Part shown: positions 3,475 to 43,500 of the stretch, one piece after another
How positions within the stretch are numbered: position 1 is the stretch's first letter
Layout: every line of letters begins with the position of its first letter
From: Candidatus Omnitrophota bacterium
GTDB lineage: Bacteria; Omnitrophota; Gorgyraeia; Gygaellales; Profunditerraquicolaceae
Direction: 5' to 3'
DNA length: 57,157 nt
NCBI GenBank assembly: GCA_017992455.1
Contig: JAGOOP010000003.1
Span: 73,402 to 130,558, forward strand
The notes under the pieces: model-generated
What the model was told of the DNA's origin: nothing
Databases searched by the model: none
What the model saw: only the letters and a program-made list of their open reading frames with translations
Program-made: the position numbers and the translations under genes

Positions 3475-3513
3475 AAAAAACCGGTTTGCCATTCCTTATT
3501 TCGGCAACCCGGT
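3475..3513 (-). terminator. Riboswitch-controlled terminator upstream of the 3433 gene
   Basis: On the minus strand ACCGGGTTGCC pairs with GGCAAACCGGT with one mismatch, followed by six T residues. The 5' arm is the conserved 3' end of the c-di-GMP aptamer, so ligand-bound aptamer and terminator exclude each other. This predicts an ON switch. Confidence 0.75.
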
Positions 3514-3579
3514 AATCGTTGACAGCTTCATCAAGATCCGTGGCTTTCCTGCTATTAATAGCAGGCTTTATCGATAAGG
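3494..3579 (-). ncRNA. c-di-GMP-I (GEMM-I) riboswitch aptamer, 3433 gene
   Basis: The minus strand shows the GEMM-I landmarks in order: P1 5' side CCTTAT, a stem-loop closed by GCCTGCTA/TAGCAGG, GGAAAGCCACGGATC, a variable stem, then ACCGGGTTGCCGAA and the P1 3' side ATAAGG. The same landmarks occur at three other leaders in this window. This copy departs slightly from the usual GGCAAACC on the 5' side. It lies 60 bases upstream of the ATG. Confidence 0.82.
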
Positions 3580-3839: not shown

Positions 3840-6749
3840 TTATGGAATGTCTTTAAGCGCTTTTTTTGCTGCTTCAGCGATTTTCCAGTAGAAACCGTCG
3901 CCTGTCGGATCATAGCACTGGGCAAAACCGAACTTGTTGATCACTGTGTTATACGCTTCTTTGGCTTTTTCATAATTCTTCTGCTTTGCGTATATCTCAC
4001 CAAGGATGAAATACGCAGTGCCCACATCATTGAGCGCCCAGTATTGCGATTCCTTGCCCTTTGGCGCGAAATCCTTCAATGACGCCTGCTGTTTGAGCGC
4101 TTCCTCGCCGTAGCGGTCGATGCATTCCTGGGCAAAAACTTTTGCCGCAGCATAGTCCTTGGCATTGTAATAATCCCACGCCTTTTTCATAAGCGCTTCG
4201 GAGCTCGTGCATGAGAGCATCTCAAGCCGGAACGCCAGGTCCTTGAACCCGTTCGCCTTAAGATGCTTGATAAGGCTGTTCATATCGGCAGTAGCTAACT
4301 TCTTGACAAGCGAATCCTTCAAGCCCGAGATCGTGCCGAAGATCGCGACGATATTCTCCTGCATCGCCTTGTCATCTCCGAGATCAGAGCCTTTCTTATA
4401 GACTTGCTTGAGCAGCGCGGTTAACGCGTCATACATCCTTCTCTGCCAGCCCCGATGGCGCATGTCTTTCAGGTGCTCCGGGACTGTGATCCACGCCTTG
4501 ATATCCGCGATGGTATCTTTGACCATTTGGGCGTCAACCTTGCCTGTATTATTGGCCAGGTTGATCGTTTCGATGTTCGCCAGCGCCCGCGCGACAAACG
4601 CCGCATGGTCTGCGCTGGTGGTTGCGTTCATCTCTTTGCGTGCTTTATCGACAAAACCCGCAAGGTCGAAATCCTTGTTGAGAAGGGCGTTTGTGCATTT
4701 CTCAACAACGCCCTCAAGGCCTTTTGCTTTTGCGGCATCCTTGAGATGCGTCAGCAGATTGATCGCCGATGACTGCACGGTAACGCAGCCGCCCTCATCC
4801 GCAGACAAAAGCAGGGATTTCTCCGCAAAAGAGATATAGGCGTTCGTCAGCGCTTTGGTCGAGTCCGTGGCGCCTTTGCCTTGGTTAAACAGGGTGGACA
4901 GCGCGCAGCCGATGCAATGGATCATGCCGCTGCGAACACCGGCTGAGACCTTGATGGAGCCGTCATTGACGCCTTTGACGAATGTTGTGAGCTTGTTGGC
5001 TATCTTCGTCCGGTCAGCGTCAGACAATTTCGTCTTGCTTGCCTTGTTCAACGCGTCGCTGTGCCAGAGCGCCTGCGCAAGCGCATTCGCTATATGTCCG
5101 CGGCTTTCGTCGTTAAGGGATTTGTCATCAAGATCTGCCATCCATTTATTGACAAGGCCCTGGATGCCGCCTTTGATGTCAAGCGCCTGCTCGAGGATCT
5201 TATTGACTTCATCGCGGTTGCCTTCTTTCGATCCCCAGTTGCCGATCCGCCACATGTTCATGAGCTGGCAGAATGCCTGCGCTTTGACATGGGTCGAACC
5301 GTTCTCCAGAAGCGTCTTAAAGAACTCAGCTATCTTGGGATACAACGCGCTGTTGGTCTTGTTATTTGCGCTTAACCAGGTAAGCTCGATGCCAAGAGCC
5401 ATAAAGCTATGGCTTATAGCGAGTTGTGTCGCATCATCCATTGCCTTAAAAGCATCGCTTTTGACCAGGTTTAACGCGGCCGTGACAACCGATGCCTGCG
5501 CTTTCGAGAGGTCCAGCTTGTAGCTGTCATCACGGTAGATCTTTTTCAGCTCCGCGGTCATCGCAGACATTACCGCGTTGATCGCACCGGCTGAAATCAG
5601 CTCCGGATGTTCCTTGGAAAGTTTCAGGATGTCATTGCCGAGTTTTTCCCATGCCTGTTTTTTCATAGATACGTCGTCCAATTTATTGATGTAGGCGACG
5701 TAATCCTTGTAATACTGTGTCCAGACCTTGATGTCTGTTTCTGTATCAGGAGGGCGTACCGGCGGCTTGATCTCGACATTCGCTGTTGTCTCGATCTTTT
5801 TGCCGTCTTTGTCGTAATACGTCTCCGAATGAACGCCGGTGTTGGTATCCTTCACGACCTTCGAGCCGATAAAGTTGCCGTCAGCGTCATAGTAGTTGGT
5901 CGTGTAGCCGGTACTCGGCGGTATCGTGGTCGTGGTCCACATGTAGGTCGGCCCGCTTCGGGCAGGCGTCGTGCCGAATATCTTCTTTAATGCCGCCTGT
6001 TCATCAGGGCTCAACGCAGTGCCTTCGCGCGTGATCACGTTGCCGTCTTTATCATAATAGGCGCCGAGGATATCGTATTGGGTTCCGGTTGTTTTATGAT
6101 ACGTTCCGATTACGTTGCCGGCCTTGTCATAATACGTGACGGTCGTGCCGCCATCAAGGTATACCGTTTTGGATGTTACCGGCGCTACTCCGAAGATTTT
6201 CTGAAGCTCTTTTTGTTCTTCGGCGGACAGCTTCTTAGTTTCCGGTTTCTGCACCCGGGGATCCTCAGAGAGCTCTCCGTTCCCGACTGCTGCTTTCCAC
6301 GTGTTTGTTGCCGATATGGTTGTTGCAGCCCGTTTTGCCACAGGCGCTGTTTCTGCCTGAACGACATTCATGGGCATGCTGACCGCCGTCATGGTGACCA
6401 GCAATACCGTTGTTACAATGGTCCTGAACTTTTGCGCGAACATTACACCCTCCTTTTTAGAGATCCGGTTAACGATATTATTTGATTTTCCTTCTATTTT
6501 CAACACTGCGAGGCCGTCTATCACCGCCTGGCATATGTATTGAAGCAGGGTTTCCAAATTCTCCCTGTCCAACCGCTGCCATTGCGCGTGCGCGCCTTTT
6601 TTGCAGTATGCCTGTTCCTCATCCGCGGCGATGAGGAATATCGCGTTTTTTCGGGTGCTTGTATCTCTGGCAAAAGCCAGAACGCCTCCGTCTTGTGTAA
6701 AAAAACCCAGCCGCCTGAAACGTAATCCCCTGCTGACCCCGCCTATCAT
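3840..6749 (-). CDS. Small-domain protein fused in frame to secreted YD/TPR protein B
   Basis: One uninterrupted frame of 969 codons from ATG 6749, whose ATGA overlaps the TGA of the upstream gene (SD GGGAGGG). Residues 1-102 match the small domain family found at 8497, 38873, 39563 and 41591 (FTQDGGVLAFARD, an I-F-L-I strand, then AxWQxL). A complete signal peptide (MFAQKFRTIVTTVLLVTMTA ... VQAE) then begins at an internal ATG, 6443, with its own AGGAGG. The 867-residue product from that start is probably exported. It has YYDKDGN-type repeats and two KKIFG-type segments (about residues 45-190), a long all-alpha solenoid (200-730), and two TPR-like helix pairs at the C-terminus (CIDRYGEEALK ... 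GEIYAKQKNYEKAKEAYN). Its N-terminal part is duplicated in the gene at 8808-9290. Function is unknown; a surface scaffold is plausible. Confidence 0.85.
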   Translation of the reverse strand: MIGGVSRGLRFRRLGFFTQDGGVLAFARDTSTRKNAIFLIAADEEQAYCKKGAHAQWQRLDRENLETLLQYICQAVIDGLAVLKIEGKSNNIVNRISKKEGVMFAQKFRTIVTTVLLVTMTAVSMPMNVVQAETAPVAKRAATTISATNTWKAAVGNGELSEDPRVQKPETKKLSAEEQKELQKIFGVAPVTSKTVYLDGGTTVTYYDKAGNVIGTYHKTTGTQYDILGAYYDKDGNVITREGTALSPDEQAALKKIFGTTPARSGPTYMWTTTTIPPSTGYTTNYYDADGNFIGSKVVKDTNTGVHSETYYDKDGKKIETTANVEIKPPVRPPDTETDIKVWTQYYKDYVAYINKLDDVSMKKQAWEKLGNDILKLSKEHPELISAGAINAVMSAMTAELKKIYRDDSYKLDLSKAQASVVTAALNLVKSDAFKAMDDATQLAISHSFMALGIELTWLSANNKTNSALYPKIAEFFKTLLENGSTHVKAQAFCQLMNMWRIGNWGSKEGNRDEVNKILEQALDIKGGIQGLVNKWMADLDDKSLNDESRGHIANALAQALWHSDALNKASKTKLSDADRTKIANKLTTFVKGVNDGSIKVSAGVRSGMIHCIGCALSTLFNQGKGATDSTKALTNAYISFAEKSLLLSADEGGCVTVQSSAINLLTHLKDAAKAKGLEGVVEKCTNALLNKDFDLAGFVDKARKEMNATTSADHAAFVARALANIETINLANNTGKVDAQMVKDTIADIKAWITVPEHLKDMRHRGWQRRMYDALTALLKQVYKKGSDLGDDKAMQENIVAIFGTISGLKDSLVKKLATADMNSLIKHLKANGFKDLAFRLEMLSCTSSEALMKKAWDYYNAKDYAAAKVFAQECIDRYGEEALKQQASLKDFAPKGKESQYWALNDVGTAYFILGEIYAKQKNYEKAKEAYNTVINKFGFAQCYDPTGDGFYWKIAEAAKKALKDIP
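6441..6456 (-). promoter_or_regulatory. Internal ribosome binding site and start inside the fusion frame
   Basis: On the minus strand AAAAAGGAGGGTGTA precedes ATG 6443 in the same frame as the upstream small domain. The codons after it encode a textbook signal peptide. This argues for an independent start, so the locus may give both a cytosolic small-domain fusion and an exported protein B. Confidence 0.75.
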
Positions 6750-8236
6750 AACGCCCTCCCTTGATAAAAAAGACAATTACAAAGAAAAATCCCTCTGTCC
6801 TGTAATTGATCCCCCCCAGAGATCAATGAGGACAGAGGGATGGTGTTATAAATAATGGAATTATCTATCGTGAGGTTTGCATTATATACAGAAACATCTA
6901 AAGCGGAATAGCTGCGAATAGAGCGATTCGATGCGGAAAGAAAAGCGGTTGAATTGGTTGATACGGTTTCCGGGGGAGAAAGGCCGGTTCTGGTGTAGTT
7001 TACCGCGTTCTTCTTCAGCATATCGATAATATTTATTGAATGCGTTGGGTTGATCGGTTTCCAGGCTACTCGCGCTATGGTTTCGCTTAAAGGATTCTGA
7101 TCCCCGGAGTTTCTATCTTCAAAGGCCTTGCGAAGCGGAGCAGGGAGGGGATCCTTATGTTCATTGCCGGAAACTGCAGAAGGAAGGTTGCTTGAATCCT
7201 GAAGCAAGAGGTCCAAGAGAAGAGGCATGTCCTCATTCGGGATAACTAGTTTGAATATGGGTATAATGCCTTTGATCCAGCCGCTTGTGTGTTCATAAGT
7301 TTTATTTTTAAGGTTGGTAACGGATTTTATATGTTTCCAAGCGGTTACTCTGGCAGTTGAAAGCGATTTTTGGACGGCATAGAAGCCATCAGTTACAGAA
7401 GATGCTGTTTTTCTGGAACGCGAATGTGTTTTTTGGGCCAGAATTTTCGCTGTAGCACACGTTTGTGTTGCCTTGGTTATCAGCGCATTAACAGTTCGTT
7501 TGCCGGCTTGAAGCGCCTGAGCATGCTGCACGGTTGGCTTATTATTTGTCAGAACCTTCTCTGCCGCTTCCCGGGAAGAATGAGCTTCGTTTTTCCACGA
7601 TATGTTATTATGAAGCGCATGAGCGCCGTCTTCAGCCTTAAAAATAAATTGGCTTGTTGATTGAGCAGTGCAGAGAAGCGGGGAGGAGTTCAAATTCGCA
7701 TTTACTATGTTTGTGGTTAATCCGGACATTTCCGGGGCTTTGAGAGGCTGTAATCCGGCTGTCGGCATGATCCCGACAGATGTTAATGCTGGGCTCAATA
7801 GGTTCGAATCAGGCTTAATCTGCGGCTGGGTCAGAGCCACGGGTTTTACTGCCGGGGGTATTGTTTGGATCCCTCCGCTCAAGGCAAGAGAGGAGTTCAC
7901 TATTGAGATTGATGCCGGACTGGAAATTGAAACCGCAGGCGCTGTCTGAAGGACTCTCACAGGAGAAGGATTGCTCAGGATCAAATTTGTCCCGGCGCCC
8001 ATCGATAGGCTGGCTGCTGTCCCAACCGACTTGAATCCGGGAGTAATGGCGTCACCTGATAAAGGACTTACCGATGCAGTAATAGGATTTGAAGACGAGA
8101 TCACTGATTGCTGCTTGTTTTTTATTTTGTCTTTTTTGGGAGTTTCGGCATGGGCGGTTGACGCAAGCATAAGAGATAATGCCGCGCCTATGATAAGATA
8201 TCTGCCCGATATTGTTTTACCTGTGAGATTGCTCAC
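6746..8236 (-). CDS. Secreted Ser/Ala-rich protein A (operon B)
   Basis: I use the GTG at 8236, not the longer frame from 8383 whose first 49 codons lie inside the riboswitch. GTG has GGGGGA just upstream and starts a signal peptide (VSNLTGKTISGRYLIIGAAL ... STAHA). The 496-residue product is rich in Ser, Ala, Pro and Asn and has no enzyme motif I recognise. Near the C-terminus it has the segment NYTRTGLSPPETVSTNS, matched by NYSKTGLSPPDKADITNS in the gene at 9283-10683. Both genes come directly after a riboswitch and directly before a protein-B gene, so the two are paralogous first genes of a duplicated cassette. The stop overlaps the next start (ATGA), suggesting translational coupling. Confidence 0.85.
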   Translation of the reverse strand: MSNLTGKTISGRYLIIGAALSLMLASTAHAETPKKDKIKNKQQSVISSSNPITASVSPLSGDAITPGFKSVGTAASLSMGAGTNLILSNPSPVRVLQTAPAVSISSPASISIVNSSLALSGGIQTIPPAVKPVALTQPQIKPDSNLLSPALTSVGIMPTAGLQPLKAPEMSGLTTNIVNANLNSSPLLCTAQSTSQFIFKAEDGAHALHNNISWKNEAHSSREAAEKVLTNNKPTVQHAQALQAGKRTVNALITKATQTCATAKILAQKTHSRSRKTASSVTDGFYAVQKSLSTARVTAWKHIKSVTNLKNKTYEHTSGWIKGIIPIFKLVIPNEDMPLLLDLLLQDSSNLPSAVSGNEHKDPLPAPLRKAFEDRNSGDQNPLSETIARVAWKPINPTHSINIIDMLKKNAVNYTRTGLSPPETVSTNSTAFLSASNRSIRSYSALDVSVYNANLTIDNSIIYNTIPLSSLISGGDQLQDRGIFLCNCLFYQGRAL

Positions 8237-8250
8237 GTATCCCCCAAAAT

Positions 8251-8291
8251 AAAAATCCGGATTGCGAAAGTTCCTTATTTCGGCAACCCGG
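8251..8291 (-). terminator. Riboswitch-controlled terminator, operon B
   Basis: On the minus strand CCGGGTTGC pairs with GCAATCCGG, followed by ATTTTT. The 5' arm is again the 3' end of the aptamer, so ligand binding should block termination. Confidence 0.72.
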
Positions 8292-8375
8292 TCGGTCTTA
8301 GAAACGACGAACCCAAATCCCCTTTGTCTGACCCCGTGGCTTTCCCGTTCTTGCGAACGGGCTTTTTCGATAAGG
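8273..8375 (-). ncRNA. c-di-GMP-I (GEMM-I) riboswitch aptamer, operon B
   Basis: Minus-strand landmarks are P1 CCTTAT/ATAAGG, AAAGCCCGTTC/GAACGGG stem, GGAAAGCCACGGGGTCAG, a variable stem and CCGGGTTGCCGAAA. It is the close counterpart of the aptamers at 3494 and 10722. It lies 37 bases upstream of the GTG start. Confidence 0.85.
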
Positions 8376-8403
8376 ACAAACAATTACTTTAATAGTTCAC
8401 TAT

Positions 8404-8463
8404 AAGTATGCCAGATGGCCTCTGAAATTCAAGATTAAATATCTGAATATTGCTTCTGTTAAA
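8404..8463 (-). promoter_or_regulatory. Promoter with shared upstream box, operon B
   Basis: On the minus strand TTTAACAGAAGCAA (8450-8463) precedes TTGAAT (8427-8432). A CATACT or ATACTT -10 follows after 16-17 bases (8404-8410). The box is less complete than at the other three promoters but sits at the same distance from the -35. Confidence 0.62.
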
Positions 8464-8496
8464 TATTTACTAATTAAAATAACCGTATCAACCGTA

Positions 8497-8796
8497 TCAT
8501 GAACCAGTAATGTGTATATTTTGAACTAATGAATCTATTTTTCCGTCTATTTCCTTGATCTCAAGACCATTTATTACTTCATTGCTCATAATTTGCACGA
8601 ATCGGCATAATGCATTGTTATTGAGCTTTTTCCAGGCAGAAGCGCCTGAATAAAGAACATATATCCTCTCTTCTGACCCCAGGACAAGGAACATTATGTC
8701 GTCTTTTGTCGTGTTCGCCTGCGCAAATGCAAGAATATCATCGCTTTCGTTAAAATAGAAAATATGGTTAAGCGTAAATTCAGCATTCTGGTCCAT
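8497..8796 (-). CDS. Small domain protein, free-standing copy (operon C)
   Basis: 99 residues. I chose ATG 8796 over 8823 because AAAGGGAAG lies just upstream and because the conserved domain starts there. It follows protein B' after an 11-base gap, so it is the third gene of operon C. The sequence has the family pattern: LNHIFYFNESDDILAFAQ, a hydrophobic strand (IMFLVLG), AWKKL, then a helix and a final I-E-I-D strand. The same family occurs fused at 3840-6749 and nested at 38873, 39563 and 41591. It has no signal peptide and no catalytic motif. I do not recognise the family; a cytosolic regulator or secretion chaperone for the neighbouring secreted proteins is a guess from gene context only. 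Confidence 0.8.
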   Translation of the reverse strand: MDQNAEFTLNHIFYFNESDDILAFAQANTTKDDIMFLVLGSEERIYVLYSGASAWKKLNNNALCRFVQIMSNEVINGLEIKEIDGKIDSLVQNIHITGS

Positions 8797-8807
8797 ATTT
8801 CTTCCCT

Positions 8808-9290
8808 TTAAGCATTGGTCCATGATTTTATTAAGGTTGACGATTTTTGCAGGTCGAATTTCTTGAACAAATAGCTTATAAGATCTTTTATATACTTGAT
8901 CCAGACCCGGATGTCTTTTTCGTTTTTATCAGGCTGAACAGGCGGCTGGATTTCGGTATTTGAGTTCGTATCGATTTTCTTGTTATCTTTGTCGTAGAAG
9001 GTGGTCTTTGTTCCGCCGGATAGGTTTACCGTGACGGATCTCCTCGGAGTTACGCCGAATATTTCTGTCAATTCTGTCTGTTCCTGCTGCGAAAGAGTCT
9101 TTTTCGTCGTCAACCTATCCAATACGCTGGGCCCCCTATTAAAAGAGTTGCTCGTGACTTCGGGTAAGGTGTTTTTATGACTATCCCAGATTGTTGCAGC
9201 TGCCTGCGCTGACCCCGCAGGCAGCGATGACGATAATAGCGTTGTTATCAGAGTAATATTGATCATGATGCTAATCCGGTGTTTAACCAT
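8808..9290 (-). CDS. Short secreted protein B' (truncated paralog of protein B)
   Basis: 160 residues. ATG 9290 overlaps the stop of the previous gene by 8 bases and has AAGGAA upstream. The signal peptide is MVKHRISIMINITLITTLLS followed by SSLPAGSAQA. Residues about 68-145 match the start of protein B: LSQQEQTELTEIFGVTP, then a YDKDNKKID repeat, then TEIQPPVQP and a KDIRVW segment. Where protein B continues with about 650 residues of helical and TPR repeats, this copy stops (KSWTNA). It is either a decayed duplicate or a minimal version of the family. Confidence 0.8.
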   Translation of the reverse strand: MVKHRISIMINITLITTLLSSSLPAGSAQAAATIWDSHKNTLPEVTSNSFNRGPSVLDRLTTKKTLSQQEQTELTEIFGVTPRRSVTVNLSGGTKTTFYDKDNKKIDTNSNTEIQPPVQPDKNEKDIRVWIKYIKDLISYLFKKFDLQKSSTLIKSWTNA

Positions 9291-10700: not shown

Positions 10701-10741
10701 GAAAATGCCGCGTTACCTTTTCCTTACTTCGGTAACCCGGC
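10701..10741 (-). terminator. Riboswitch-controlled terminator, operon C
   Basis: On the minus strand GCCGGGTTACC pairs with GGTAACGCGGC, followed by ATTTTC. It overlaps the aptamer 3' end as in the other three leaders. Confidence 0.7.
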
Positions 10742-10883
10742 TAGTCGGATAAACAATACAGAGCTGAATGTCGATGTTGCGCCTGGCGTCGCACCCCTGC
10801 GACATTTCATGCCTGGCTTAGCTCTCTCCTGACCCCGTGGCTTTCCGCACCCGCCTTACGACGGGATCGGCTTTTCGATAAGG
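10722..10883 (-). ncRNA. c-di-GMP-I (GEMM-I) riboswitch aptamer with extended stem, operon C
   Basis: The minus strand shows P1 CCTTATCG/CGAAGTAAGG, GAAAAGCC, GGAAAGCCACGGGGTCAGG, then an unusually long variable arm of about 80 bases, then CTAGCCGGGTTACCGAAG. The length difference from the other copies is confined to the variable arm, which is tolerated in this class. Confidence 0.82.
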
Positions 10884-13419: not shown

Positions 13420-13520
13420 GAACGATAAAGGCAAACCTCGAGTAATCGGGGGGCGCAAAGCCACGGGTCCTGACTCTGCCGGATGCAGAGAAACCATCTT
13501 TAGGATAGCCGAGTTACCGA
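13420..13520 (+). ncRNA. c-di-GMP-I (GEMM-I) riboswitch aptamer, giant gene
   Basis: The best match of the four. GGCAAACC at 13430-13437, GGGGGGCGCAAAGCC, ACGGGTCCTGAC, a CTCTGCC/GGATGCAGAG arm, then TAGCCGAGTTACCGA at 13507-13520 follow the GEMM-I consensus. It lies between a consensus promoter and the giant gene. Confidence 0.9.
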
Positions 13521-13539
13521 AAAAAGGTACTCGGCTTTT
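13508..13539 (+). terminator. Riboswitch-controlled terminator before the giant gene
   Basis: GCCGAGTTACC pairs with GGTACTCGGC (one bulged T) and is followed by TTTTC. The 5' arm is the 3' part of the aptamer, so c-di-GMP binding should prevent termination and switch the giant gene on. Confidence 0.78.
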
Positions 13540-37500: not shown

Positions 37501-40500
37501 AGCATGCTGGTATCGCGGACCCGATTACCCATGTTTTGGTCGCTCACTTGGATACTAAATACGAATATATCAAGGATTATTTTATTGACGCTCTATATGA
37601 TTTTGAAGCAAACGGTATGGTGAAGGGAAAATTCGACAACTTGTTAAGCGTAGCCTTTGCGCTTTACATTATGAGAAAACTGGCAGCTTCAAAGTCCGCC
37701 AACGGTATCTTTTACTTTACCCTTGATGAAGAAGAAGCAAAGGGTATGGGTAGATATTCTGTACTGGCTGATTTAAATAATGAAAAAGGTACTAACAATA
37801 TCAAAACCGGTCTTGAGTGGAATCTGGATGTCAAGGATGACGATAAAGCAAATATGCTTGGAAAAGGTCTCACGGTTACTGAGTATGAGACATCAAAGGA
37901 CGTCGCTGCTACGATGAAAAAATTAGCCACGCAACTTGGAATTAATATGGAGATTCTTGAACAGGGTAAAGATTCCTGGACTGACGCGCAGGTTATTGCA
38001 ATGGTGCATGCGATGGTCACGGTTAGCGTCCCGGTTATTAATATGCATACTTATAATGAAGCCGCAAGTATCAACGATATAGCCTTGATGAAGAAATTTA
38101 TCGACGCGGCATTCCAGTTTGAAACTGTCGCGACTGAATTACTGCCTGCTGCGATCAATTTGGTCGGAGATAAAGCCGTGAAGGCGTTCGCGCAGATGGG
38201 CGAAGTCACTCCCGGCGCAGTGGCCTCGACAGTGGCTAACCTCAACGGTAATGGGAACGGCAATTATCTCGGCGAAGGCGTCATTCCGATGAATATCATG
38301 GCTGAAGCTATCAAGAATACGCCTGTTCAGCTCTATAGCAATGGTACTGAAATGTACGTTGTCAAGGGCGACCTGGACAAAGAAAAAGTTTCAGTGATAA
38401 CCCTGAAGAAAGACAGAATCTATGAAGACGGGTCAAGGGCTGTACGCGTCATTGGTATCCCGAGCGAGAGGGATAGCGTGGAAATTACTGCCCACGACAA
38501 CAAGTTGGTTGATGTTGCTGAATACAACCAGATCAAGCTTATCAGCGCAGCGGATGAAAGTGCTTCAGAATCCGGTTATGACGGCGGCACAGTCCCGGCC
38601 AACATCCCTGTGAGCACCGCAAGCGCAGCAATAGCCGCAGAAACCCAGGACGGCGGGATTGGCACCAATGCCGCAAAGAATATAGGATCAATCACTGTAC
38701 AGAATACCAGAATGAACGCAATGGGATTGTTTGGGGTCGTAAACACCGCTCCGTTAGTGCTTACAGGCCTTCACACCGGCGTTGCGCCTCCGACCGCGGT
38801 TGCCATCATTGCCTTACTCGTTGCAGCAGCCGTTTATGTGTATCGCAAACAATCCGTCGGAGGTGATCAAACATGGTCAACTTCAGCTACTCTGACCTCA
38901 GATTCAAGCACCAAGTCATATTCAAAGAAGATGACTGCATCCTCGCTGCAGCCAACGAACCATGCAGCCGCAGGATCAGATTATTCCTCATCTTCAATGA
39001 TAGGAAGGTCTATATCCGCAACGGCATCCAGAACAACTGGGAGCCTGTGGGCGAATATGCAACAGAGGCTGTTGTTGGTTCGCTCAATCAAGCTGTTGGT
39101 CGCGGCCTTACGACGTTCTATCTCCACAGTACGTGCGCGATCACTGCGGGTATCAGCAACTAGGTCAGGCTTCAGAACAGGATTAAAGCATCTGTGGAAC
39201 ACGATCAGGCCAGGTGCTATTGTCCGCACATTCTTTAAGCAAGTCCTCAAGACGCTGGGCCATGCTTGCGGCTGGATCGTGAATCCAGTTATCAATCGTT
39301 TACGGCCCGTCACAACCACTTCTAAACTCTCTACAGAGAATCGTCCTACTAATTCCATCATTAGATCTCATAAAAATATTTTATTAAAGCCTTCTGACTC
39401 ATTATCTACCGTGGCAGGTAATGTGGGGAGGAAGGCCGAAAATCTCGAAGCGGACGACATCAGTGCCGCCGATAATATATTGGGTTCCGGGTTAACGCCG
39501 GCTATTTGGTCAGATAGCCGTGCTGTGTTCTTAACCAATGGTTCCAAAAATGGAGGTGTATTATGGTCAACTTTACAACGGGTCATAGCATCACTCTCAA
39601 GCATCTTGTCATCTTCGACAATGGATCGCGCATTTTCGCGGCAGGTCGTGAGCAATACGGCAACAAGCAAGCCATCAGGCTCTACATCCTCAATGCCGGC
39701 ACGGGAGAAGTTTTTACTCGAAACGGCCGAACAGATCAATGGAATCTCGTATCAGAACAAGCTCATCGCCAGCATATCGCCGACCATATCCACGAGGCCC
39801 GCGCAGCCCGCCACGTCCCTGTTTACACCATTCGCGGCCAGTTCGACCTCGCTTAATGCCGACGGCGGCAATAAGATTATCCTTGTTCTTGGGCCGTCAG
39901 GCAGCGGCAAGACGACCTTGATCAGAGGGCTCCCGGCCGTATTCAAGGAATTAGGCTCCGGGGTCCGAGTAAAAGCTCTTCGTTTGACAACCGATCGGGC
40001 GCCGGATCGCGACTGCGAAGAGGACAAGGAATTCATCTCTGTTAAGGAGTTTACCGATAAGATCAATAACGGCTTCTTCCTTTATCATTGGCAGAGCCGT
40101 AACGATGGCGTGTCGGCGACACGATATGGGATCGAAAAAAGCAATATCGAGCAGGACACGGTGTATATCATTGATTCGAATACTGTCAGCAGGATCAAAG
40201 ATTACAAGGATATCTTCGGCAGTGACCTGTTGGGCGTGGTCGTGGTCCTGCCGAGCACTCCCGAGGATTACGAGTTGAACGATGCTATCAGCAGGAATTT
40301 AAAAAATAACCTTATGCAAAGACACGGTTCTGTTCCTACATCCCGTCAAGAGGCCTTAGCGAAAGACGTTAAAGTGCGTATGCTCGAGACTGAACTGTTC
40401 ATGAGGTGGGAGTATCCGAATTTATTGGATCAGGTCGTCAAGGGCAATGGCCCGGTCGCGATAGAACAATTGAGGATCGTAATCAAGCCGGTTTCACGGA

Positions 40501-43500
40501 CCCAGCCCGAATGGGAAGAGAAAAATCAAGTATTGTCAGACTTCAGAGCACAGGTGGCGAAGCTTATTGAAGATGATTTGAATGCGCAGGCAGGCCGCGA
40601 CGGCGGCACGCCTTTTGCGGCAGTGCAGCCAGACGCGGCAGATATATTGGTTACGCAGTCTTCATTCATGCGCAGTGCAGCAAAGATATTGAGTATATTA
40701 GTAGCCCAGGCTGTTGCCGTCAAAGAATCTCTGTTGGAATCCGTGAAATACCGGGAAGCGCGGGCATTGGAAGAATCTCCGTGGGGCCTGGCGCCTCCGG
40801 ATGGTACCGGCACGTACATTTTCTTCAACAAACCCGCGAAGGTTAAATTCGCCTGCCTGATCAGCCTGCGCATGATGATCAAGCATGTGATCGATACTGT
40901 CCGGGAAGCGTTCGAGAATCCCGAAGTCCTCCGCAGAGCGATCTCCGCAACAATAGAACGTTCTTATACCTATTTAATCAATATATACATCAAGACGATA
41001 TCATTATTGCCTTCTAAACCTTTATCTACCGTGGCAGGTAATTGGGTGAGGGAGGCGATTTCCAAGGGTCTGGGCAAGGCAGGAACTCTCCTTCAGGAAG
41101 TTACTGCTTTTGCCCAGGCCCTTAACAATATTGATTTGCCGTCCGCTCTATCGACCTACCGTGGCAGGTTTGGTTTTGGGCGGGCGGCTTCAAATTCTTT
41201 GCCGTCCTTTAGAAACAACCAACCGTGGCTGGTGCGTTTGCTTTCAGGGACGGCATATATTATAGGGGCTGAGCTTTCTTCTACCTACCGTGGCAGGTTG
41301 GACAGATCAGCAAGCGAAGCCTCTAGAAATCCACAGGGTAGCCCCGTGTCAGCACAACCATCTAAACGTAAACCTTCCGTGGCTGGTGGGATACGAGATT
41401 GGCTGGTTGCTGACCGGGCTGCCCTGATTAATAGATCAACGTCATCGCGCTTGACGGCCGTCTGGGCAGACGGAGGGACGATGGCAAATGTAAAGGATGA
41501 GGGCCGTGTGCTTGGAGCTCCAACAAACCTCCAGGAGACTGACCCCTCTGAGCGTCGCGGCTCTCATTCTTTCACAAACGGAGGTGAACCATGGTCAACT
41601 TTACAACCGGACAATCAGTGGTCCTCAAGCACCTCGTGGTCTTCGACAATGAATCAAAGATCTTTGCAGCTGGTCGTGAATCCATGGGAAGAAAACATGT
41701 TCTTAGGCTATACCTTATCAACACCCACACCGGCGACGTATTTACTCGCAATGGCCGGGCTGAATCATGGGAATCAGTGGCTGATGCAGAGCGACAGAAC
41801 ATCTCAGACACCGTTTATCATGCCTATCAGGGCCGGCACATACCGGTCTACAGGATCCGCGGCCAATTCCAGTTTGATGCATAATACGCCGTATACCATT
41901 GGCGATACCCTCACGGGTATTGCCATGGCTGACGGCGGCAGAGCATTAAGAAGTATTACGAACCCGGCAGGATGGATGGCGCTGGTTAGGGTCACGAAAG
42001 CAGGGTTGGGCGCATTGGTGGCTATTGTGCTGAAAATCGTCAAATACGGCGCAAAGGCAGTGTCATTTATTGCGACCCCGGCCAAAGCCATCGTCAGAAT
42101 GATAGCTGAAGAACCGAGACAATATAACAGCATATTGCATGAAAGAACTAACCCGAGTTACGACGGCGGCTGGACCAGGGATGATTTTAAAATGGCAGGC
42201 GTAATAGGGGTTCGTGCGGAAATCGTGCCTATGAAAGAAGTCCTCGCGCGTGTTGCGGATAAAGCTCAGCGCGAGGAACTGGCTGACGTATGGGCGGATA
42301 TTCAAGGTCAATTCCCGGATATCGTTACGTATGTAAAAGAAAATAAAGTGGCGTTCCTGAGAGACACGACGAATCTGGCAGGCGAACCCGGCAAGAGCGA
42401 TTGGCTGCCGAAACGCCCGGCGTTTGGTTTGGGGCTTACCGGACGGACAATCTATGCTTACCTGAGAGGCCTGATGACGCTTGCAATAAAAGGAAGCGGG
42501 GATTGGGATAAAAAGGTTTATGTTGTTTCAAAGAGCGCGGCCAACGTCGGGCCGGATACACGGCCTGTTCTCAATATGCTCAATAGCCACGCGCTTATCG
42601 GGGCTTTGAACTTCGAAGAGGCGGCATCACAGGTCATTGCATCGCTTGATTATATAAGAACTATCAGAAAGATGGGCGGCGTGCCGAATACAGGGTTACC
42701 GCTTGTGATCGTCAGGCCCCTGGAAATCCCCTATGTGACGGCTGATGGAGACGTGGTCCTTATGCCGATCGTTGAATACTTTGCCCAGCATTCCAAAGTG
42801 AACAATATTATAGCTCAATTACGTGAAGCGTACCCGGCGACTTTCCGCAGCAGCGTGAAAAAAGGATTGCCGTCGTTCTTGGAGGTAGACAAACTGATCA
42901 ATGCGTATTCGGATCGCGCGGAGGCGGTATTAGCCAAACTGCCGGAAGAATTAAGGCAGTTGCATGATGCTAAAACAAGGCTTGGGAATTCCTCAAAGTA
43001 TGCGCACGGATCGGATGATTATAACAAGCTGTATGACGATTATTACAGGAAGTCGCTGGTGATAGATGCGGCCATCAACGCCGATCCGGAGCTTGAAAAC
43101 ATGGCACAGCAGATCGCCCGCCTGTATTTGGACGTTGTCGATCCGGTCCAACTTTTCTATGCGGCGCCCGTCGCGGACAAACGAGTGGAAGAAAGCACAA
43201 GGGAGGATATTTTTAAGGCATGGGGCTATGCAGATCCCGGGCTCATGTCTCCGGAGGAATTTACCGAGAGCGCTTCGAAGATCCTGGAAGACTTTACCAG
43301 ACGGCTGATATTTAATCTGGCGACGGCGCATGCAAACAACCGTGTTCTTGGCGTATCCCTCATCGCTCAGAATACGACCGTATTAGGCGATGTTCTTGAT
43401 ATGGGCGCTGAATATAGTATTTTGTCCGTCGGCAGACAAGAAGTATTGCCTGTTGTAGGCGTGAGCAGGTTAGTGTTCAACTATGATATCCTCGCTAAAG

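Follow-up and report, generated by a model that had tools for sequence, protein, structure and literature searches.

S90, a small gene nested out of frame in giant open reading frames of Omnitrophota, and the structured RNA often found beside it

The 57,157-nucleotide stretch of a Candidatus Omnitrophota genome analysed here (the window) holds five homologous copies of a unit of ~90-97 residues, which we label S90, and three of them lie inside a giant ORF, in another reading frame. Comparison of 64 such nested copies, from 54 genomes and at least 54 species, leaves little doubt, to judge from the distribution of stops and substitutions, that S90 is a true gene within a gene, that is, a conserved nested overlapping protein-coding gene. 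The same patterns indicate that a single DNA segment is maintained so that it can be read as two proteins, and in many cases as an RNA too, an arrangement more unusual than the one first described.

S90 in the window and the giant ORF around it

The copies and their surroundings are:

8497-8796 (ORF 8497-8823), minus strand: free-standing S90 copy, outside any long ORF, with 7 stops in each other frame
6441-6749, minus strand: S90 copy in frame with a signal-peptide/TPR protein (to 3840), with no stop between
13563-57155, plus strand: giant ORF of at least 14,531 codons, frame open throughout, running off the contig end
38873-39163, plus strand: nested S90 copy 1, 96 aa, +1 frame relative to the giant, SD GGAGGTG at 38859-38865
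39563-39856, plus strand: nested S90 copy 2, 97 aa, +1 frame relative to the giant, SD GGAGGTG at 39552-39558
41591-41884, plus strand: nested S90 copy 3, 97 aa, +1 frame relative to the giant, SD GGAGGTG at 41580-41586
13421-13522, plus strand: c-di-GMP-I-GGC riboswitch just 5' of the giant ORF (RF03167, 64.2 bits)
10728-10881, minus strand: c-di-GMP-I riboswitch 5' of the minus-strand array that holds the free-standing and fused S90 copies (45.1 bits)
3500-3576, minus strand: c-di-GMP-I riboswitch

The sequence-only reading had described one domain in five copies, and that these are real and homologous is borne out both by pairwise phmmer links (E 1e-10 to 1e-12 between the free-standing and fused copies, 8e-7 between the fused copy and the one at 38873) and by a five-row profile, which recovers exactly these five and no others in the whole genome (E 1e-35 to 1e-37). 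The in-frame fusion that it placed at 6749 is confirmed, and the signal-peptide ORF 3' of the fused copy has retained its own SD and ATG (AAGGAGGGTGTAATG, 6441-6453, minus strand). An equivalent fusion is found in a genome of the same genus (G014); in both genomes of the genus the stop between S90 and the signal-peptide ORF has been lost and the internal SD and ATG kept (window 6441-6453, minus strand; L037 near 720, plus strand). The three copies in the giant gene had been placed there correctly, but they are overlapping genes and not domains of the giant protein: each is a separate, complete out-of-frame ORF of ~97 codons with a strong SD, an ATG and a stop. In a tree of S90 sequences, which is built on a short alignment and has many weak forks, the free-standing and fused copies of the window group with nested copy 1, and this clustering suggests that both escaped from the giant.

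The giant of the window encodes a signal peptide, a Peptidase_C39-like domain, an M42 peptidase and a 1,3-beta-glucan synthase domain, the last of which matches PF02364 with E 7.5e-63 at ~53.6-54.9 kb, inside a bacterial giant ORF. Giant ORFs of more than 20 kb with few known domains and a proposed role at the cell surface or in predation are known from Omnitrophota (PMC10066038) and have been described as poorly conserved and unclear in function, and the ORF that hosts S90 is of the same kind. The passages of that study on giant ORFs describe no catalytic RNA in them and make no mention of nested genes or structured RNAs (PMC10066038), and we found no report of nested genes or RNA in the literature on Omnitrophota giant ORFs. 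The giants reach at least 31,517 codons (in G014), and their regions upstream of S90 are homologous across most loci. A c-di-GMP-I-GGC riboswitch (RF03167/RF01051, above gathering score) precedes all six giants that could be traced to their start, namely the one in the window and 5/5 others, and in these six S90 is found 15.8-28 kb from the giant start.

Within 10 kb of window sequence three c-di-GMP-I riboswitches face the giant and the minus-strand array. The array behind the riboswitch at 10728-10881 would be co-transcribed and, since the free-standing and fused copies lie downstream of this second riboswitch, all five S90 copies in the window may be under c-di-GMP control. In the giant frame, recurrent DGG tripeptides (GACGGCGGC / GACGGAGG) appear at apparent module borders over 38.5-43.7 kb of the window, and in other genera ASSP/SSPL-like motifs follow the nested gene; both kinds of motif are possible processing or fusion scars.

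Relatives of S90 and selection in two frames

Searching genomes with the five-copy profile, a check suggested with the original observation, yielded independent homologs in 42/108 genomes of the family, representing 27 of its 60 genera, while about half of the near-complete family genomes have no detectable S90. A larger profile matched 75 of the 384 genomes of a phylum sample, all from the same class except for one weak fragment. The named matches are Candidatus Omnitrophota MAGs together with two contigs labelled Woesearchaeota and Nitrospirae (L083, L091), which carry nested S90 of Omnitrophota type and are probably misbinned. No match was obtained in viral contigs, phages or plasmids, nor, at curated cut-offs or with a significant E-value, in Pfam, NCBIfam, PHROGs, PADLOC or PDB. 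A diverged nested paralog (MCREYNELEFTHFVV..; L054:10249-10494, L147:6808-7059, L163:4378-4626) often stands in tandem with S90 and is the sole copy in other genomes.

In related Omnitrophota families S90 also occurs as a free-standing gene, and 11/11 of these copies lie between mraZ and rsmH in the dcw cluster, away from giants, followed by an ftsL-like gene, ftsI and murE/murF-like genes. As ordinary genes they begin at the ATG that corresponds to the nested one, and they form one clade in the tree (99/86). Two genomes (G230 and G362) have a dcw and a nested copy each; the window's own genome has no dcw copy, and in 3/3 inspected genomes of family f1, the window's included, mraZ is followed directly by rsmH. 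The dcw proteins (L126-L141 loci) share a conserved cysteine motif, P..C.CVFC, a possible metal site, which is mostly absent from the nested forms. The unit had been thought to sit always next to a large secreted protein, with homologs mostly far from secreted giants counting against that idea. The association holds for most copies, 64 of them being nested in giants, and fails for the dcw side branch, where alone the homologs are far from such genes (11/11).

The nested copies tested (39 first-round and 25 further ones) are all in one register: in 64/64, base 2 of the S90 ATG is a first codon position of the giant frame, which is open not only across S90 but mostly across the entire 9-20 kb retrieved around it. 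Within S90 the giant frame contains no stop in any of the 64 copies. The number to be expected was obtained by drawing synonymous codons for each S90 protein and counting the stops that this creates in the giant frame, which gave 178 + 116 (about 300) with uniform synonymous codons, 193 for the first 39 copies when codons were drawn at the frequencies of the giant itself, and 40 + 17 when each gene's own codons were permuted. These tallies are to be read as counts and not as p-values, since copies that are related do not count as independent observations. That the giant frame is open by chance is ruled out by zero stops against any of these expectations. Openness as a property of the S90 protein sequence is ruled out by the homologs outside giants, since the 11 dcw copies have 41 stops in the equivalent frame (40-51 expected) and the free-standing and fused copies of the window have 14 (13.9 expected). 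The third sense frame of the nested copies contains 334 stops. The absence of stops in nested copies, set against their chance-level frequency in free-standing homologs, therefore shows that both readings are under selection.

The S90 frame carries its own coding signature. In pairs of 55-70% identity, nucleotide identity by nested codon position is 0.68/0.77/0.42, position 3 being the most variable, and it is therefore the amino-acid sequence that is selected in the S90 frame, with the giant frame mainly kept free of stops. Most S90 copies have the SD GGAGGTG directly 5' of the ATG.

The RNA element and a second nested ORF

The ~140 nt directly 5' of S90 usually form two hairpins that covary strongly: in 18 of the 38 pairs of this structure both sides have changed, and the covariation score of 0.381 compares with 0.206 after shuffling (0/500 as high) and falls to 0.07-0.12 when the partner strand is slid. 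The conserved parts are a loop (CCGUGGCAGG), an apical CCUCC and UGACC. A covariance model (R1) finds the element in 45/108 family genomes, with one to three matches per genome that are nearly always at nested-gene loci, and at several loci the element is repeated in tandem, up to five times (L100). Six loci scanned against Rfam at gathering score gave no match, and within the window Rfam detects only the c-di-GMP riboswitches, at other positions. The matches to R1 in the window are:

41434-41593, plus strand: RNA element adjoining the 5' side of nested copy 3 (E 5.5e-7)
39383-39565, plus strand: probable degenerate RNA element 5' of nested copy 2 (E 0.0056, weak)
41003-41150, plus strand: possible extra RNA element with no ORF after it (E 0.017, weak)

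Nested copy 1 of the window has no element detectable with R1. More distant nested copies have other, unrelated hairpins at the same place, as judged by eye, and the dcw paralogs have no such RNA element.

Could the RNA mask the start of the nested gene? Apical loops able to pair over at least 5 nt with the adjacent SD are present in 25 of 60 cases compared with 4.8 after shuffling, but tandem RNA copies without an adjacent ORF often retain CCUCC as well, and covariation gives no support to an interaction between this loop and the nested SD. Because CCUCC persists in RNA copies that lack an adjacent SD or gene, loop-SD pairing is suggestive rather than established.

A second nested ORF, S45, lies roughly 350-650 nt 5' of S90, in the other non-giant frame and with its own SD. 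It encodes 43-54 residues, predicted to be helical, with a consensus around EELKALETQYLxRRLEEIR. Its 18 good copies (for example L062:14141-14287) have no giant-frame stops where 38 are expected, and one locus (L160) has two ORFs of this type; S45 was not found in the window. When the six giants with a traced start were screened for ORFs in the other frames that reach 40 aa or more and have both an ATG and a strong SD, every ORF obtained, one spurious match aside, was an S45 or an S90 gene.

Possible roles of the nested gene

How might the nested gene be expressed, and what might its product do? Our overall reading, to which we give a probability of about 0.6, is that S90 is an embedded gene under RNA control, translated in dependence on ribosomes that are reading the giant, and that its product is a small cytoplasmic regulator or adaptor. 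Translation of S90 would begin at the gene's own ATG, behind its own SD, in frame +1 of a giant surface-protein ORF that is controlled by a c-di-GMP riboswitch. The RNA would fold beside the nested start and restrain the S90 SD, ribosomes on the giant frame would run through the RNA and unfold it, and, because these passing ribosomes would have to open the RNA, S90 would be produced in step with the giant. The protein would then act in the cytoplasm, being related to the small protein of the mraZ-rsmH interval in the division cluster. Taken on its own, translational coupling to the giant is somewhat short of even odds, and the assignment as a regulator or adaptor is tentative and somewhat more doubtful. 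It is favoured over a secretion factor because of the ordinary-gene paralogs in the mraZ-rsmH cluster and because S90 proteins have no signal peptide, and this preference is the weakest step of the argument. A confident AlphaFold2 model of S90 (pLDDT 84.9, pTM 0.75) shows a beta meander, one helix and a last strand, for which Foldseek returned no significant neighbour (best E 0.13 in PDB, 0.012 among viral structures).

Several known systems come close to this arrangement. In Bacillus subtilis, comS is nested out of frame in srfAB, a small regulatory gene co-expressed with a giant ORF. S90 likewise sits inside a giant ORF in another frame, but it is larger, unrelated and found in many species; a conserved structured RNA precedes it, and it has free-standing paralogs in the dcw cluster. 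Translational coupling by an RNA that masks an SD is known from the coat-replicase type of MS2, where, as proposed here, an RNA structure beside an internal start can be opened by upstream ribosomes; at S90 loci, however, these ribosomes would also translate through the nested gene in the other frame, and the SD pairing is putative. Type III toxin-antitoxin systems such as ToxIN have tandem structured RNAs 5' of a small gene, as S90 does, but the RNA of S90 differs in size and is intragenic, S90 has paralogs without the RNA, and the protein lacks a family match, including any PADLOC or Pfam match to the ToxN/TenpN/CptN toxins.

This last likeness, together with the tandem RNA copies (up to five, L100) and the presence of multiple copies in some genomes, gives some appeal to the view that the RNA and S90, possibly with S45, are a selfish or addiction module, for example one like type III toxin-antitoxin, settled in linkers of giant ORFs. 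We consider this quite improbable, as genomes nearly always have just one locus, located 16-28 kb from the start of a homologous giant, the searches of viral contigs, phages, plasmids, PADLOC and PHROGs were empty, the dcw paralogs lack the RNA, and copies cluster in the tree according to their state and lineage. A programmed frameshift out of the giant frame, yielding a truncated giant protein with an S90 domain at its end, would agree with the fixed register, and in-frame SD-like sequences, which are able to stimulate frameshifts, could act as stimulators here. It is nevertheless very improbable: nearly all copies have a strong SD and an ATG, a stop in the nested frame usually lies 1-59 codons upstream of the ATG at a variable position, and the dcw homologs begin at the equivalent ATG as ordinary genes.

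The functions originally suggested for the unit included that of a dedicated chaperone or a secretion factor; such a role, or one in targeting the giant protein, would fit a protein encoded within the giant, and so made together with it, and cytoplasmic in the absence of a signal peptide. We regard it as unlikely, given the paralog in the mraZ-rsmH interval of related families, away from giants, the lack of a detectable copy in about half of the near-complete family genomes and a predicted fold that matches no chaperone. Alternatively, processing of the giant mRNA might release the RNA elements, which would then work in trans as regulators with C-rich loops on the SDs of other mRNAs; S90 might bind the elements. 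Many tandem copies without an adjacent SD do keep their CCUCC loops, which speaks for this reading, but the elements usually abut the nested start codon, and we find this decidedly unlikely.

S45, the structured RNA and S90 could together form a riboregulated mini-operon that acts as a checkpoint inside the giant message, switched on once the c-di-GMP-triggered transcript and its ribosomes reach 16-28 kb and feeding back on giant synthesis or the cell envelope. This reading is rather unlikely as it stands, but if true it would add a novel type of control layer within genes, with coding in up to all three frames.

Few bacterial genes are convincing cases of conserved nesting on the same strand; S90 is such a case, recurs in 54 species or more and comes with free-standing homologs as natural controls. 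Genes nested in the manner of S90 are probably dropped by standard gene callers. For the giants themselves, continuous translation of the giant frame is supported, because the frame is kept free of stops over sequence that is otherwise not conserved as protein. A conserved point inside these giant genes of Omnitrophota is a hidden gene with its RNA, and it offers a handle on them.
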